From Thermoguttaceae bacterium (GTDB lineage Bacteria > Planctomycetota > Planctomycetia > Pirellulales > Thermoguttaceae), in NCBI GenBank assembly GCA_025060325.1, contig JANXBW010000001.1, positions 1-64,000 on the forward strand: DNA of 64,000 bases, read 5' to 3'. The notes under the pieces were generated by a model that saw only the letters and a list, made by a program, of their open reading frames with translations, was not told the origin of the DNA and did no database searches. This document shows positions 41,128-45,654 of this stretch, piece after piece. Every line of letters begins with the position of its first letter. Position 1 is the first letter of the stretch. A program made the translations under genes and the position numbers.

Positions 41128-42801
41128 TTAGTCCGGAAATTCAATTTGTTCTTCTTCGGCCGCTTTACGCAGCTTGCTTAGCGCCCGGGCTTCAATCTGG
41201 CGAACACGCTCCTTGGTCACGCCCAGCTCGGCTCCGACTTGTTTTAGCGTCAACGGTTCGCGACGGTCACCTAGGCCGAACCGGCTGACGATGATCTGCT
41301 GTTCGCGGGGATCCAATCGGGACAAGATCCGCTCGATTTGCCGCTCCCGGAGCAGCTGGGCTCCTTCCCGCTCGTACTGGTCGGAGCGGATGTCCTCGGT
41401 CATGTTGAACATCTCACTCTGACTTGTGCGGAACCGCTCCCGATGTCGTTGCTCGTCCGGGATGGTTCGCGCGAAGTTCTTCATAATCGCCCAGCTAGCG
41501 TAGGTGCTAAACTTATTGCCCCGCGTGTAGTCGAACTTTTCCACCGCGCGAATCAGCGACATGTTCCCGTCGCTTACCAGCTCGAAGAAATTGGTGCCAG
41601 GCCCAACGTGCCGCTTGGCAATCGACACAACAAGCCGCAGGTTGGCCGAGACAATTTCGTTCTTGGTGGCCACGGCTTGTTCATACAGCTTTTCAATCTC
41701 ATCCATCAGCTCAGTGCGTGGATGAGCCAGGTCGAGTTTTTCCCGCAGCTTGGAAGCCTTGTACTTGAGGTAATTCATTTTTCGGAAGAGATGGACCTCT
41801 TGCTCCCGCGTCAAAAGCGGGACCTCGTATAAGCTCGCCAAGTACGGTGGTAAGCCAGGTGGAACCTTGGCGGGTTTCTGCGGTTGTGGTGAAGGCGGTG
41901 GCGGCCCGAGTACCTGCCGCTCTTGCTCAGGTGTCTTTATCTGCTCAAACTCGGGGCTGTAGATGTAGTCGAGCGGCAACTCCAGAATCCGCTTGGCGCG
42001 CATTTCAGCCACGATTCGATAAATGGTGCTCTTTGCGCGCCCGTACTGCTTGGCCAACGCAGCAGCTGACTCACCGTGGCGGAACTGTTGATAAATGCGG
42101 CGCTTGTCTTCTTCGCTTAGATTCTGGAGCTTGTCCGGGAAGATCGCCAGGTCGGGATGAGCTTCGTCAAATTGTTTGATCGTGTAACGGACGGTCTCCG
42201 GGCTTCGGCCCGTCTCCTCGGAAATTTGGCGCGCTACCTCCGAGGGTCTTGCTCCTGTCAGGGCTAATTCCCGTGCTCGATCAATAATCATTCGCCGCTC
42301 CTCCACGGTCAGTTGACTAAAGTGCGCCCCCCTTTCCACCAAATCCGAATGGCGCTCCAGGAAGCGCCGCACAGTGCTTTCCGCGAAGACCACCCGCTGC
42401 CGACCCCCAATGATTACCCTCCGGGGCACAAGACCCCACCGCCGCCACCGGCTGAGCGTCTTTTCACAGACGTTGAAGGTCTTGGCTAACGTGGGAAGAG
42501 TGTAGATGGGCTCGGAGACCTCCTCGGCCGCCAACCGAGCCGACTCCCACAAGTCTTCCACTAGGAGGGCAAGATCGTGGCAGGCAACCGCTCCACTGAC
42601 CCTCAGATCCGGATAGCGGTCGGACCGGAATCGGGTAATACGGTAGCAGATGTACTCGTAAGAGTAGTCCCTGTCGGGACGAAGCTCTTGCAGTAGCTCC
42701 TCCGCCCGCTCGGCTTGCTCGATCTTCTTCTCGCGAGGTGCAAATCGCACCTGCTGATCGCGCAATTCTCGGAGAGCTGGGCAGAGATAACCGTTATTCA
42801 T
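41128..42801 (-). CDS. Sigma-70 factor with extended N-terminal multi-HTH region
   Basis: 557 aa from the ATG at 42801; a GTG at 42843 would add 14 residues. The N-terminal half is not found in ordinary RpoD. It has a MerR/excisionase-like HTH at about 98-150 (LPTLAKTFNVCEKTLSRWRR, with GGRQRVVF wing), then HTH units at about 165-215 (GARPSEVARQISEETGR) and 228-275 (ESAAALAKQYGRAKSTIYRI). A Pro-rich linker follows at about 298-318. Sigma region 1.2/2 is at about 320-455 (NLRLVVSIAKRHVG, DGNMSLIRAVEKFDYTRGNK) and region 4 at about 490-545 (LGVTKERVRQIEARALSKLR). It directs RNA polymerase to promoters and may bind extra DNA sites through the HTHs. Own promoter and terminator are visible. Confidence 0.93.
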   Translation of the reverse strand: MNNGYLCPALRELRDQQVRFAPREKKIEQAERAEELLQELRPDRDYSYEYICYRITRFRSDRYPDLRVSGAVACHDLALLVEDLWESARLAAEEVSEPIYTLPTLAKTFNVCEKTLSRWRRWGLVPRRVIIGGRQRVVFAESTVRRFLERHSDLVERGAHFSQLTVEERRMIIDRARELALTGARPSEVARQISEETGRSPETVRYTIKQFDEAHPDLAIFPDKLQNLSEEDKRRIYQQFRHGESAAALAKQYGRAKSTIYRIVAEMRAKRILELPLDYIYSPEFEQIKTPEQERQVLGPPPPSPQPQKPAKVPPGLPPYLASLYEVPLLTREQEVHLFRKMNYLKYKASKLREKLDLAHPRTELMDEIEKLYEQAVATKNEIVSANLRLVVSIAKRHVGPGTNFFELVSDGNMSLIRAVEKFDYTRGNKFSTYASWAIMKNFARTIPDEQRHRERFRTSQSEMFNMTEDIRSDQYEREGAQLLRERQIERILSRLDPREQQIIVSRFGLGDRREPLTLKQVGAELGVTKERVRQIEARALSKLRKAAEEEQIEFPD

Positions 42802-43826
42802 CTTGAGCTTGAGCTGCCTTTCGCCGCAAGCCCCTTCCGCCACCGGCCCAGCTAATCCCAGCCCGGATACGCGGAAGTTGGCCCCTCCCGAATGACACCC
42901 GAACCCCCAAAGGCGTGTACTGCCGGTCCGCGGCTCCCAGTATAATTCGGCCGATTATTTTTCACAACTAAAGTTTGCAAAATTGGATCCTTTGTCCTCA
43001 CCGCGCATGCTTCTCGCAAAGTATTTACGAGCGATGGGACCAATTGGTCTAAATTTTCACCAAAAGGCTGACCGATAAAGCCATCTTTAGGCACCAACCC
43101 CAACGAATTTCCTCGGTTTTGTGCACTAGCGAGCACACTCCAGCCTAATTGTGCAAATGCGTCGCTAATCTGCAGCCCCCTTTCTTCCCACCACAGATGT
43201 TTTTATCCCTGGTACCACGTGGGCTATGGCAGGAAGCACAGCGATTCGGGTTTTTTGCCCTGACCTCATCTGCTCTGAATCATTACTCACCTGCTAAGTT
43301 TATGTCGTTTCCGCTCTTTCCGTACCCTGCAGATTTCAATCTTTCTGACAGCGGGTCTTAGACTTCCAAGCCCTTCGGACCCCAACTGGCCCACATGGTT
43401 TCACAAGGAGGGAGCGTACGGCCTTCGGATGCGAACCGGTGCATAAAGCGTTCCGGCCGGGTATTTCTCTGGAAAAATCCCTTGGCCGACCACGCGCCTA
43501 TCTGCTCTGCTGCGTTCTCCGAAACCCAGAAGCAGTCCCCGACGAAGCCACAGGGCCCCCTCGAGAATTGCCTAACCGTCCGCGTCTCGCCCAGCGCCGG
43601 CTCACAGCCAATGGCTCGCGATTTTGCCCTCGCGGCAGACCTTATCCCTTTGCTAGTTTCCAACCCATTTGCGTTTAAGAGCGGGTGTGCCTGACGCTGC
43701 GTTCGGTGAAATCCACTTTTTGATCGGCAGAACCTGCGATTGGACGGACCACTCTCGACCTTCCGAGCCGGAAGTTAACGATTGACGAGCAAAATCTCCC
43801 GAGACCCTGATTGGAGGTCCATACCA
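42802..43826. other. Divergent intergenic region
   Basis: About 1.0 kb upstream of the sigma factor and of the secreted protein at 43827. Besides the promoter at 42939-42967 no feature is supported. Confidence 0.45.
42939..42967 (-). promoter_or_regulatory. Sigma-70-type promoter of the sigma-factor gene
   Basis: Minus strand: -35 TTGTGA (42967-42962), 17-bp spacer, -10 TATACT (42944-42939). The predicted start near 42932 gives a leader of about 130 nt to the ATG at 42801. This is the best promoter match in the window. Confidence 0.65.
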
Positions 43827-45233
43827 GTGAAAAACAACTTTGGCTCCTTGCGGCTAAATAACGCGAGCCATCGCGTCTCAAATTGGCTTGTGCCCATATT
43901 TGCCGGGTGCCTCGTTCTTTCTAACCCCGCATTCAGCAACCTGGGGCTTGGCCAACAGATTAGTTTGCGAGCAAGCCCCGCTAGTTCTCTGCCTGACCGG
44001 GTGGAAGTGACCTACGAAGCGGAAGGCAAGCTCGTCGTTCGCGAAACTGGCCGAGTGCAAACCCTCCCGATGAAGGTTCAGGCCAAATTCGTCTTTTTTG
44101 AACGCCGGCCGGAGATTCAGCAAGTTGGCGGCGTAAACGGCAACTCGTTGCGGGTGGCGATTCGGTGGTATGAGACGGCGGAGACTTCTGGAACAGTCGA
44201 CAATCAACCGGTAACGGCTAAGTTGCGAGCCGACCGCCGCCTAGTGGCTCTTCGGGCCGATCAAACCGAATTTGCCTTATGGAGCCTGGCCGGACCATTG
44301 ACTCGAGCAGAGCTTGACCTCCTTCGGCCGACTTGTGGCACCGTCGTTTTAGAGGATCTCCTCCCCGCACAGCCTGTTCAAAAAGGCAGCAAATGGGAAC
44401 TCCCCGGGCAAGCCTTGGCAAGTCTTGTCGGCTTCGACGGTCTGGTTTCCTCGGATGTGGAGGCCACCCTGCTTGAGATTGCGGGCGATATCGCCCGGGT
44501 GGAATTCGGCGGCAAAGTCGAAGGCGCTAGCGAGGCAATGAGTAGCGCGGTGTCGGTTAAAGGGCGGTACCAGTTTTCAGTTTCCCAAGGCCGAATGGTG
44601 TGGTTAGGACTGGCCTATCACGAGCGACGCGACCCCGGCCCAATCGCCCCTGGTGTTGACGTGGTGACGAAAGTCGCCATAACGATTCGGCCGGGAGTCG
44701 ACTGTCCACAAATCGCCGACCTTCGGCTCGTGGAGGCGGCGATTAATCCGCGCCCGGAGGATCTGTTCTTGGAAGAAGAACCGCCAGGGCAACTGTGGCG
44801 GCTCCATTATGACCGGCGCTGGCACGTGACAGCACTCACCGATCGCTTTTGCGTGCTTCGCTATGTGGACCGCGGCAGCTACCTAGCCCAGTGCAAGATC
44901 GCTCGGGCAAACCGGCCCCAACAGGGGATGAGTCTTGCGCAATTTCAGGCAGATATTCGTGAGGCACTTGGCAAGCAGTTCCATCGATTTGTCCACGCAA
45001 GTGAACTTCGCTCTGTAGCGGGGACACCCCTTTATCGCGTAGAAGCTCAAGGCCTAGTGGGGGACGTGCCAGTCCTGTGGATTTTCTATTGGATAGCCAA
45101 CCCCGGGGGTGAGGCACTCGTGCTGAGCTTTACGGTGGAACAATCACTTTACGAACGGTTTGCTCAAGCGGACAAGCAGCTCGTCGAAGGGCTCAAGTTC
45201 CGCGTAGAGGAAGTAGCAGCTCGACCACGTTAA
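43827..45233 (+). CDS. Secreted protein of unknown function
   Basis: 468 aa from the GTG at 43827, with GGAGG 9 nt upstream; an in-frame TTG at 43782 would put residues before the signal peptide and is rejected. Signal peptide about 1-45 (WLVPIFAGCLVLSNPAF). The mature protein is mainly beta-rich with phrases VEVTYEAEGKLVVRETGR and VQAKFVFFERR near the N-terminus and a C-terminal alpha/beta part (QFQADIREALGKQFHRFVHA). I recognise the style of planctomycete exported proteins but no named domain. Convergent with the structured RNA at 45430-45642. Confidence 0.7.
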   Translation: MKNNFGSLRLNNASHRVSNWLVPIFAGCLVLSNPAFSNLGLGQQISLRASPASSLPDRVEVTYEAEGKLVVRETGRVQTLPMKVQAKFVFFERRPEIQQVGGVNGNSLRVAIRWYETAETSGTVDNQPVTAKLRADRRLVALRADQTEFALWSLAGPLTRAELDLLRPTCGTVVLEDLLPAQPVQKGSKWELPGQALASLVGFDGLVSSDVEATLLEIAGDIARVEFGGKVEGASEAMSSAVSVKGRYQFSVSQGRMVWLGLAYHERRDPGPIAPGVDVVTKVAITIRPGVDCPQIADLRLVEAAINPRPEDLFLEEEPPGQLWRLHYDRRWHVTALTDRFCVLRYVDRGSYLAQCKIARANRPQQGMSLAQFQADIREALGKQFHRFVHASELRSVAGTPLYRVEAQGLVGDVPVLWIFYWIANPGGEALVLSFTVEQSLYERFAQADKQLVEGLKFRVEEVAARPR

Positions 45234-45429: not shown

Positions 45430-45469
45430 AAAAAAGCCATCGCGACCTTTTTGCAAAGATCGCGATGGC
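45430..45469 (-). terminator. Strong intrinsic terminator of the small RNA
   Basis: On the minus strand a 10-bp perfect stem (GCCATCGCGA/TCGCGATGGC, arms 45436-45445 and 45460-45469) is followed by TTTTTTC. On the plus strand there is no T-run, so it acts leftward. Confidence 0.85.
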
Positions 45470-45642
45470 CTAAATATTCCAAACCTCCCGGGATATTGCG
45501 ACTGGATGCGTCGCTGCGAGACGAGCGGGAACCAGGCGTGCTACTGCACTAGCCTTTGGCGGTTCCGGCTCACGCTAAAGGGTTGGCACCTCCGTCGGAT
45601 ATCACGCGGGAGGTTGGAGTTCACCCCGTAGGTTTACCTATC
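45430..45642 (-). ncRNA. Structured small RNA, 6S-like candidate
   Basis: A compact minus-strand transcription unit: a perfect -10 TATAAT (45654-45649) and an intrinsic terminator frame a stretch of about 210 nt with strong pairing. A closing helix joins 45607-45617 to 45479-45490 (CCAACCTCCCG with CGGGAGGTTTGG). A terminal arm joins 45561-45571 to 45523-45533 (GAGC and GGAACC pairs). Between them lies an unpaired region whose 3' side holds a small hairpin GCGAC/GTCGC (45498-45514). The long rod with a central bubble and a 3'-side hairpin is the shape of 6S RNA, which binds sigma-70 RNA polymerase. No minus-strand gene follows, so it is not a riboswitch leader. tmRNA, RNase P and SRP signature sequences are absent. 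Confidence 0.5.
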
Positions 45643-45648
45643 GCACCA

Positions 45649-45654
45649 ATTATA
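45649..45654 (-). promoter_or_regulatory. -10 box of the small RNA
   Basis: Perfect TATAAT on the minus strand, 7 nt before the proposed RNA start. The -35 region is weak (CAGCTG at 17 nt). Confidence 0.5.

Follow-up and report, generated by a model that had tools for sequence, protein, structure and literature searches.

Some bacteria carry two 6S RNAs, and the CsrA-binding sRNAs of the CsrB/RsmZ type contain repeated GGA hairpins. For the planctomycetes, the available text of a 2017 paper reports that no 6S RNA was found in T. terrifontis, a species placed by the taxonomy in Pirellulales, Thermoguttaceae; for the absence of this RNA in P. staleyi and R. baltica, the paper refers to a screen of 2014. 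The Rhodopirellula-1 motif (Weinberg 2010, PMC2864571), is described in the accessible part of that article as present in Planctomycetes and also in Proteobacteria; it is listed there as probably cis-regulatory, with an ambiguous RNA status and without an Rfam entry. The portions of the open-licence PubMed Central literature that were searched contained no description of the RNA presented below.

The locus and its predicted transcript

According to an earlier note, the window (i.e. the whole 64,000-nucleotide stretch of DNA that was analysed) contains an isolated structured RNA on its minus strand, with a -10 element, about 210 nt of strongly paired sequence, a terminator and no downstream gene. 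Analysis of the locus upheld this description. As shown in Table 1, a TATAAT hexamer and an intrinsic terminator enclose the region, and the position of these signals suggests that a transcript of the minus strand exists. The 216-nt stretch 45649-45434 was predicted to fold with an energy of -99.1 kcal/mol, compared with -72.07±4.77 kcal/mol for 200 dinucleotide shuffles (z = -5.67), none of which was equally good. A two-hexamer promoter scan of the locus gave no result (0 found), so the TATAAT is accompanied by no recognisable -35 element. Another TATAAT is located at window positions 45869-45864 (minus strand), approximately 215 nt upstream of that of the RNA.

The nearest long ORF in the direction of the predicted transcript (43782-45233) lies on the plus strand. 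In a mechanical ORF list, all minus-strand ORFs between the RNA and position 42843 are short (up to 112 aa), and one of them starts at TTG 45482, inside the RNA. The next long minus-strand ORF starts at 42843, about 2.6 kb downstream of the RNA. This ORF (41128-42843) encodes a sigma-70 type factor with regions 2 and 4, plus extra helix-turn-helix domains; homologous ORFs were found near the RNA in 4 of 41 surroundings (40 regions fetched from other genomes and the window, picked for spread among families).

Table 1. Features of the RNA locus (window coordinates).
Feature	Position	Strand	Basis or remark
-10 element TATAAT	45649..45654	-	sequence; transcription expected to start near 45642, about 7 nt further downstream
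Predicted transcript, about 212 nt	45430..45642	-	predicted from the -10 position and the terminator end
Conserved family core, 141 positions	45479..45619	-	covariance model R1, 151.2 bits (the window sequence is one of R1's own 20 sequences)
Closing helix, 5' strand AACCTCCCG	45607..45615	-	pairs with 45482-45490
Internal bubble, 5' strand with conserved GGA/GGAGG	45576..45606	-	two 3-pair mini-hairpins possible
Terminal arm with apical bulged hairpin	45516..45575	-	model-fitted and unfitted alignments
Unpaired UCU inside terminal arm	45521-45519	-	conserved in 98 to 100 of 100
3'-side hairpin GCGAC-loop-GUCGC	45498..45514	-	97% of cells paired (model-fitted, 100 homologs)
Closing helix, 3' strand CGGGAGGTT	45482..45490	-	pairs with 45607-45615
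Intrinsic terminator, 17 pairs, running into a T run	45434..45471	-	stem-loop in sequence

The RNA family and its conserved secondary structure

A DNA search with the region gave matches in 40 of 60 genomes, and the RNA strand from 20 of these was aligned to build covariance model R1; here and below, tallies over relatives, order, class and phylum count the window's own genome. R1 matched 155 of 196 genomes of the order, with a single match in each carrier except G077 (two matches). In a phylum sample, it matched 11 of 199 genomes, all of them inside the class. No R1 match was obtained in at least 10 genomes from the family to which the window belongs. A broader model, R3, built from 100 sequences, was matched by 146 of the 297 genomes of a class sample: 77 of the window's order and 69 of family f21, which belongs to another order, with no match among the 297 beyond these two groups. 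In a phylum sample of 294 genomes, 21 were matched, a single one of them outside the class; this match (G304, 30 bits) is weak, contains many broken pairs and is not claimed. When the pattern of the 3'-side hairpin was searched over the genomes of named species, 64 stretches were found, all 64 of them in records titled as planctomycete; the same pattern gave no matches in viral contigs, and a viral origin was rejected. To judge from these searches, the family is widespread in Pirellulales (the presumed order of the window) and in a single family belonging to a second order of the class.

Covariation across related genomes, proposed in the earlier note as a check, was found in several alignments, which show that the predicted secondary structure is conserved. 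In the unfitted alignment of 20 sequences, RNAalifold identified 44 pairs, 14 of them with double changes. In alignments fitted to the structure of the model, a procedure that favours that structure, double changes were present at 36 of 41 pairs (A4, 51 sequences) and at 38 of 41 pairs (A6, 100 homologs: the window, 39 of the 40 fetched regions and 60 further R1 hits), both results exceeding those of shuffled and slid controls. The covariation score of the fitted A6 was 0.526, compared with 0.195 for shuffled and at most 0.110 for slid controls. The closing helix, the bubble with its 3'-side hairpin and the terminal arm, all named in the earlier note, are present in the model-fitted alignment, and the bubble is asymmetric.

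Because of this effect of fitting, 40 homologs were also aligned with MAFFT, with no fitting (A7). RNAalifold kept 18 pairs in A7: 13 in the terminal arm, 12 of which show double changes, and five between a CCUCC and a GGAGG. From these 40 unfitted homologs, RNAalifold retrieved neither the closing helix nor the 3' hairpin. Since the predicted terminal arm was found in both the fitted and the unfitted alignments, it is shown twice over.

In the alternative helix of A7, CCUCC of the closing helix pairs with GGAGG of the bubble (window 45614-45588, minus strand). In the 100 sequences of A6, 78.4% of the cells of this helix are paired, compared with 78.3% after shuffling; its covariation score is 0.293 (0.285 in shuffles), and 129 of 500 shuffles reach it. 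For the closing helix, the same six 5' columns are 96.1% paired (70.9% shuffled) and the score is 0.813 (0.284 shuffled), reached by none of 500 shuffles, in an alignment that was itself fitted to the closing helix. All nine pairs of this helix show double changes in the 100 model-fitted homologs. In single-sequence folding, the closing helix was more probable than the alternative in 100 of 100 sequences, and the alternative occurred in none of the 100 minimum-energy folds. The CCUCC/GGAGG helix, with covariation no better than that of shuffles, was therefore rejected, and the putative closing helix is well supported on the fitted alignment. Less certain are the two mini-hairpins in the bubble strand, for which 92% and 76% of cells are paired in the 100 model-fitted homologs.

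The best-conserved unpaired letters are U45521, C45520, U45519 and A45515 (98 to 100 of 100 homologs), followed by C45527 (98/100) and by G45596 and C45594 of the bubble strand (96/100).

Genomic context and relationship to 6S RNA

Terminators were detected 3' of the RNA at 84 of 100 loci, compared with 2.9 in simple shuffles, which keep single-base composition only, and, on visual inspection, a strong hairpin with few T's behind it is present at 13 of the 16 loci that were missed. A stricter terminator finder gave 22 of 41 loci, as against 59 of 820 such single-base shuffles. In the 90 nt upstream of the RNA, the hexamer GCCGAT was found at 38 of 99 loci (one of the 100 lacks the full upstream stretch), compared with 1.9 in single-base shuffles; the corresponding stretches of 11 6S genes did not contain it (0/11). 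GCCGAT is a possible promoter or factor site. In relatives it often takes the form TGCCGAT (e.g. L072 and L105), and the window has TATAAT in its place.

The commonest neighbour family, a 3-keto-disaccharide hydrolase gene (PF06439) located upstream on the same strand, was present in only 9 of the 41 surroundings, and the RNA is thus not tied to one gene. Since the 41 surroundings contain no constant neighbour gene, the RNA probably acts in trans. They also contain no downstream gene family common across families, nor do they have any one kind of same-strand downstream gene in common, a feature that a riboswitch or leader would be expected to show. These results bear on the possibility of a cis-acting leader (riboswitch or attenuator), in which the terminator would serve as the expression platform and ACCUCC could change partners, from GGGAGGU in the closing helix to GGAGG in the bubble or back. 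The terminator does lie directly 3' of the closing helix, the alternative pairing was picked by RNAalifold in A7, and at three loci of family f8 related same-strand ORFs have mechanical starts 49 to 378 nt beyond the beginning of the core, two of them inside it. Nevertheless, the lack of a common downstream gene, the absence of any long ORF close downstream on the RNA's strand in the window, and the failure of the alternative pairing to covary beyond shuffles or to appear in minimum-energy folds make such a leader extremely improbable.

The f8 loci (L086, L087 and L088), with their ORFs placed close behind or inside the core, also have terminators with few T's, and the RNA may be used differently in this family. 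A possible short peptide encoded behind GGAGGUG was set aside, because this stretch is helical with double changes.

The earlier note had recognised a 6S-like architecture and proposed that the RNA is 6S RNA. The helix-bubble-arm plan resembles that of 6S RNA and covaries, but the identity was not supported. In 6S RNA, or in a second, divergent 6S RNA, the bubble would mimic an open promoter and the RNA would bind RNA polymerase. Besides the similar plan (closing helix, bubble with a 3'-side hairpin, terminal arm), three observations are in line with this reading: (i) no confident 6S gene was found in the window's own genome, whose best match to R2, a model of the order's 6S RNA made from 11 sequences, is 20.2 bits (E 0.08); (ii) none was found in G001; and (iii) the 6S candidate of G002, a genome of the same genus, finds no DNA counterpart in the window's own genome (G000) or in G001.

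The search with 6S covariance models recommended in the earlier note gave no match at this locus. Rfam model RF00013 did not match the window RNA at E up to 10. With filters off, the best R2 score was 8.3 bits, confined to the terminator hairpin (E 0.006 when 501 bases were searched). In the reverse test, 12 6S loci were searched with R3, and at E up to 10 none was matched. Moreover, many relatives have a 6S gene besides this RNA. With the 6S of a family member as blastn query, 28 of 60 genomes were matched, and 24 of these 28 (24/60) also carry this RNA at another locus, in a tally that relied on blastn alone for 6S and on blastn or R1 for this RNA; if R2 were counted too, G002, G038 and G043 would join the genomes that have both RNAs. 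The probable 6S of G002, located elsewhere in that genome, scored 46.4 bits with R2 and is not confirmed by RF00013. In a set of 40 genomes, the latter model detected above-threshold 6S in four and less strongly matching full-length copies in others; none of these lies at the locus of this RNA. Given the lack of a match to RF00013, R2 or R3 and the separate 6S loci in relatives, 6S identity was rejected, and we regard it as very unlikely. The RNA may, however, substitute for 6S in genomes where no 6S was found.

Of 39 genomes searched with R2, 27 gave a match at E up to 1, and for 25 of these E was below 1e-7; the two weak matches include the 20.2-bit one of the window's own genome. Examples of 6S RNA in Pirellulales are L022:1501-1709, L026:1501-1718 and, less surely, L114:1001-1216. 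6S RNA is thus detected in many Pirellulales (28/60 genomes by blastn, 25/39 at E<1e-7), despite the absence reported or cited for three members in the available text of the 2017 paper.

Possible function and comparison with known RNAs

A match to another RNA family, which the earlier note had named as an outcome that would speak against its reading, was not observed: with 4227 families of Rfam 15, the RNA remained below the gathering score of each family at all 30 distinct loci examined (the window and sets of 20 and 10, with one, G051, shared; the 20 were searched at E up to 1 and the 10 at the gathering score). Weaker matches were taken as chance, namely ar7 at the window RNA (18.4 bits, gathering score 60), MIR158 on the terminator hairpin (sub-threshold), a frameshift element on the opposite strand (sub-threshold), and STnc420 at the 3' edge of homolog L069 (25.8 bits, gathering score 70). 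SRP RNA (RF00169), tmRNA and RNase P RNA gave no match to the RNA either; the SRP RNA of the window's genome was found at C10:7258-7356 (67.9 bits). The novelty claimed is at the level of the RNA family, a putative conserved family absent from the Rfam listing. Approximately 4 kb from the RNA in another planctomycete, an Acido-Lenti-1 RNA (RF01687, 42.3 bits) was detected at L083:2698-2745 (plus strand), outside the taxa given for Acido-Lenti-1 in the consulted part of the 2010 article.

We consider it fairly probable that the locus is a non-coding RNA gene, usually single-copy, of a family unlisted in Rfam, whose product would be a folded, trans-acting RNA of about 210 nt with a conserved partner. 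The transcript would adopt a stable fold whose helices would expose three elements to this partner, by our guess most likely a protein: the bubble strand with its conserved GGA, the internal loop with the invariant UCU, and the 3' hairpin. The bubble would be the contact site. Access to the GG-rich bubble strand may be gated by the loop of the 3' hairpin, which could fold back on that strand; for such a pseudoknot, permutation counts of 90/2000 and, with one of the 100 loci left out, 9/5000 were obtained, kinship being uncorrected, and they are only weakly suggestive.

The sequence of the bubble strand permits two more specific proposals. GGA is present in this strand in 97 of 100 homologs (32 in single-base shuffles), GGAGG in 67 (1 in such shuffles) and ANGGA in 41 (8.7 in such shuffles). 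CsrA was found in all 20 genomes searched (G000-G012, G037-G043), with 2 to 11 matches each, and a GGA-binding CsrA paralog is therefore one concrete, testable candidate for the partner. That the RNA binds and titrates CsrA through the bubble GGA is nonetheless unlikely, since GGA is conserved at a single position and not in an array, and since its mean number per core (2.43) is only slightly above that of single-base shuffles (1.94), unlike in a CsrA sponge. In addition, CsrA is present in G005, G008, G009 and G010, four genomes in which neither DNA search nor R1 detected the RNA.

The same strand matches the Shine-Dalgarno consensus over at least 5 bases in 68 of 100 homologs, compared with 281 of 2000 single-base shuffles, and 3'-hairpin loops such as UCCACC and UCCUCC occur. 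Both features would suit a base-pairing sRNA in which either the hairpin loop would target Shine-Dalgarno regions in mRNAs or the GGAGG strand would pair with the 3' end of 16S rRNA. However, in 32 of 100 homologs the match does not exceed 4 bases, and the loop differs from family to family, with some rows of the alignment having a very short loop or none; we judge this proposal to be improbable to about the same degree as CsrA titration. With the likeness holding in 68 homologs only, ribosome binding is possible, but a universal function of this kind was rejected.

The trans-acting RNA with a conserved partner remains the preferred reading. A tentative extension, to which we assign a smaller though appreciable chance, is a housekeeping-like RNA of two planctomycete orders, forming a ribonucleoprotein with the conserved partner and having a fold with no known counterpart elsewhere in bacteria. 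If true, this cell type would have a stable RNA machine of its own, with a standing comparable to that of 6S or SRP RNA. RNAs that are widespread, usually single-copy and covarying often have important jobs, and the one described here is found in 155 of the 196 sampled genomes of the order.

Among known systems, the Rhodopirellula-1 motif (PMC2864571), compared by its description in the accessible part of the article only, has its occurrence in Planctomycetes in common with the RNA. The bacterial small SRP RNA (RF00169) resembles it in being housekeeping-like, with one match per genome, but lies at a separate locus of the window's genome. With the CsrA-binding sRNAs of the CsrB/RsmZ type, the RNA shares a conserved GGA in a possibly unpaired region and the presence of CsrA; it differs from them in having one conserved GGA position, with no repeated GGA hairpins seen. 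Its similarity to 6S RNA (RF00013) comprises the closing helix, the bubble with a 3'-side hairpin, the terminal arm and the organization as a standalone gene of about 200 nt. In contrast to 6S RNA, the bubble strand of this RNA is conserved in sequence, the models of the two RNAs match in neither direction, and many relatives that carry this RNA have a separate 6S gene.
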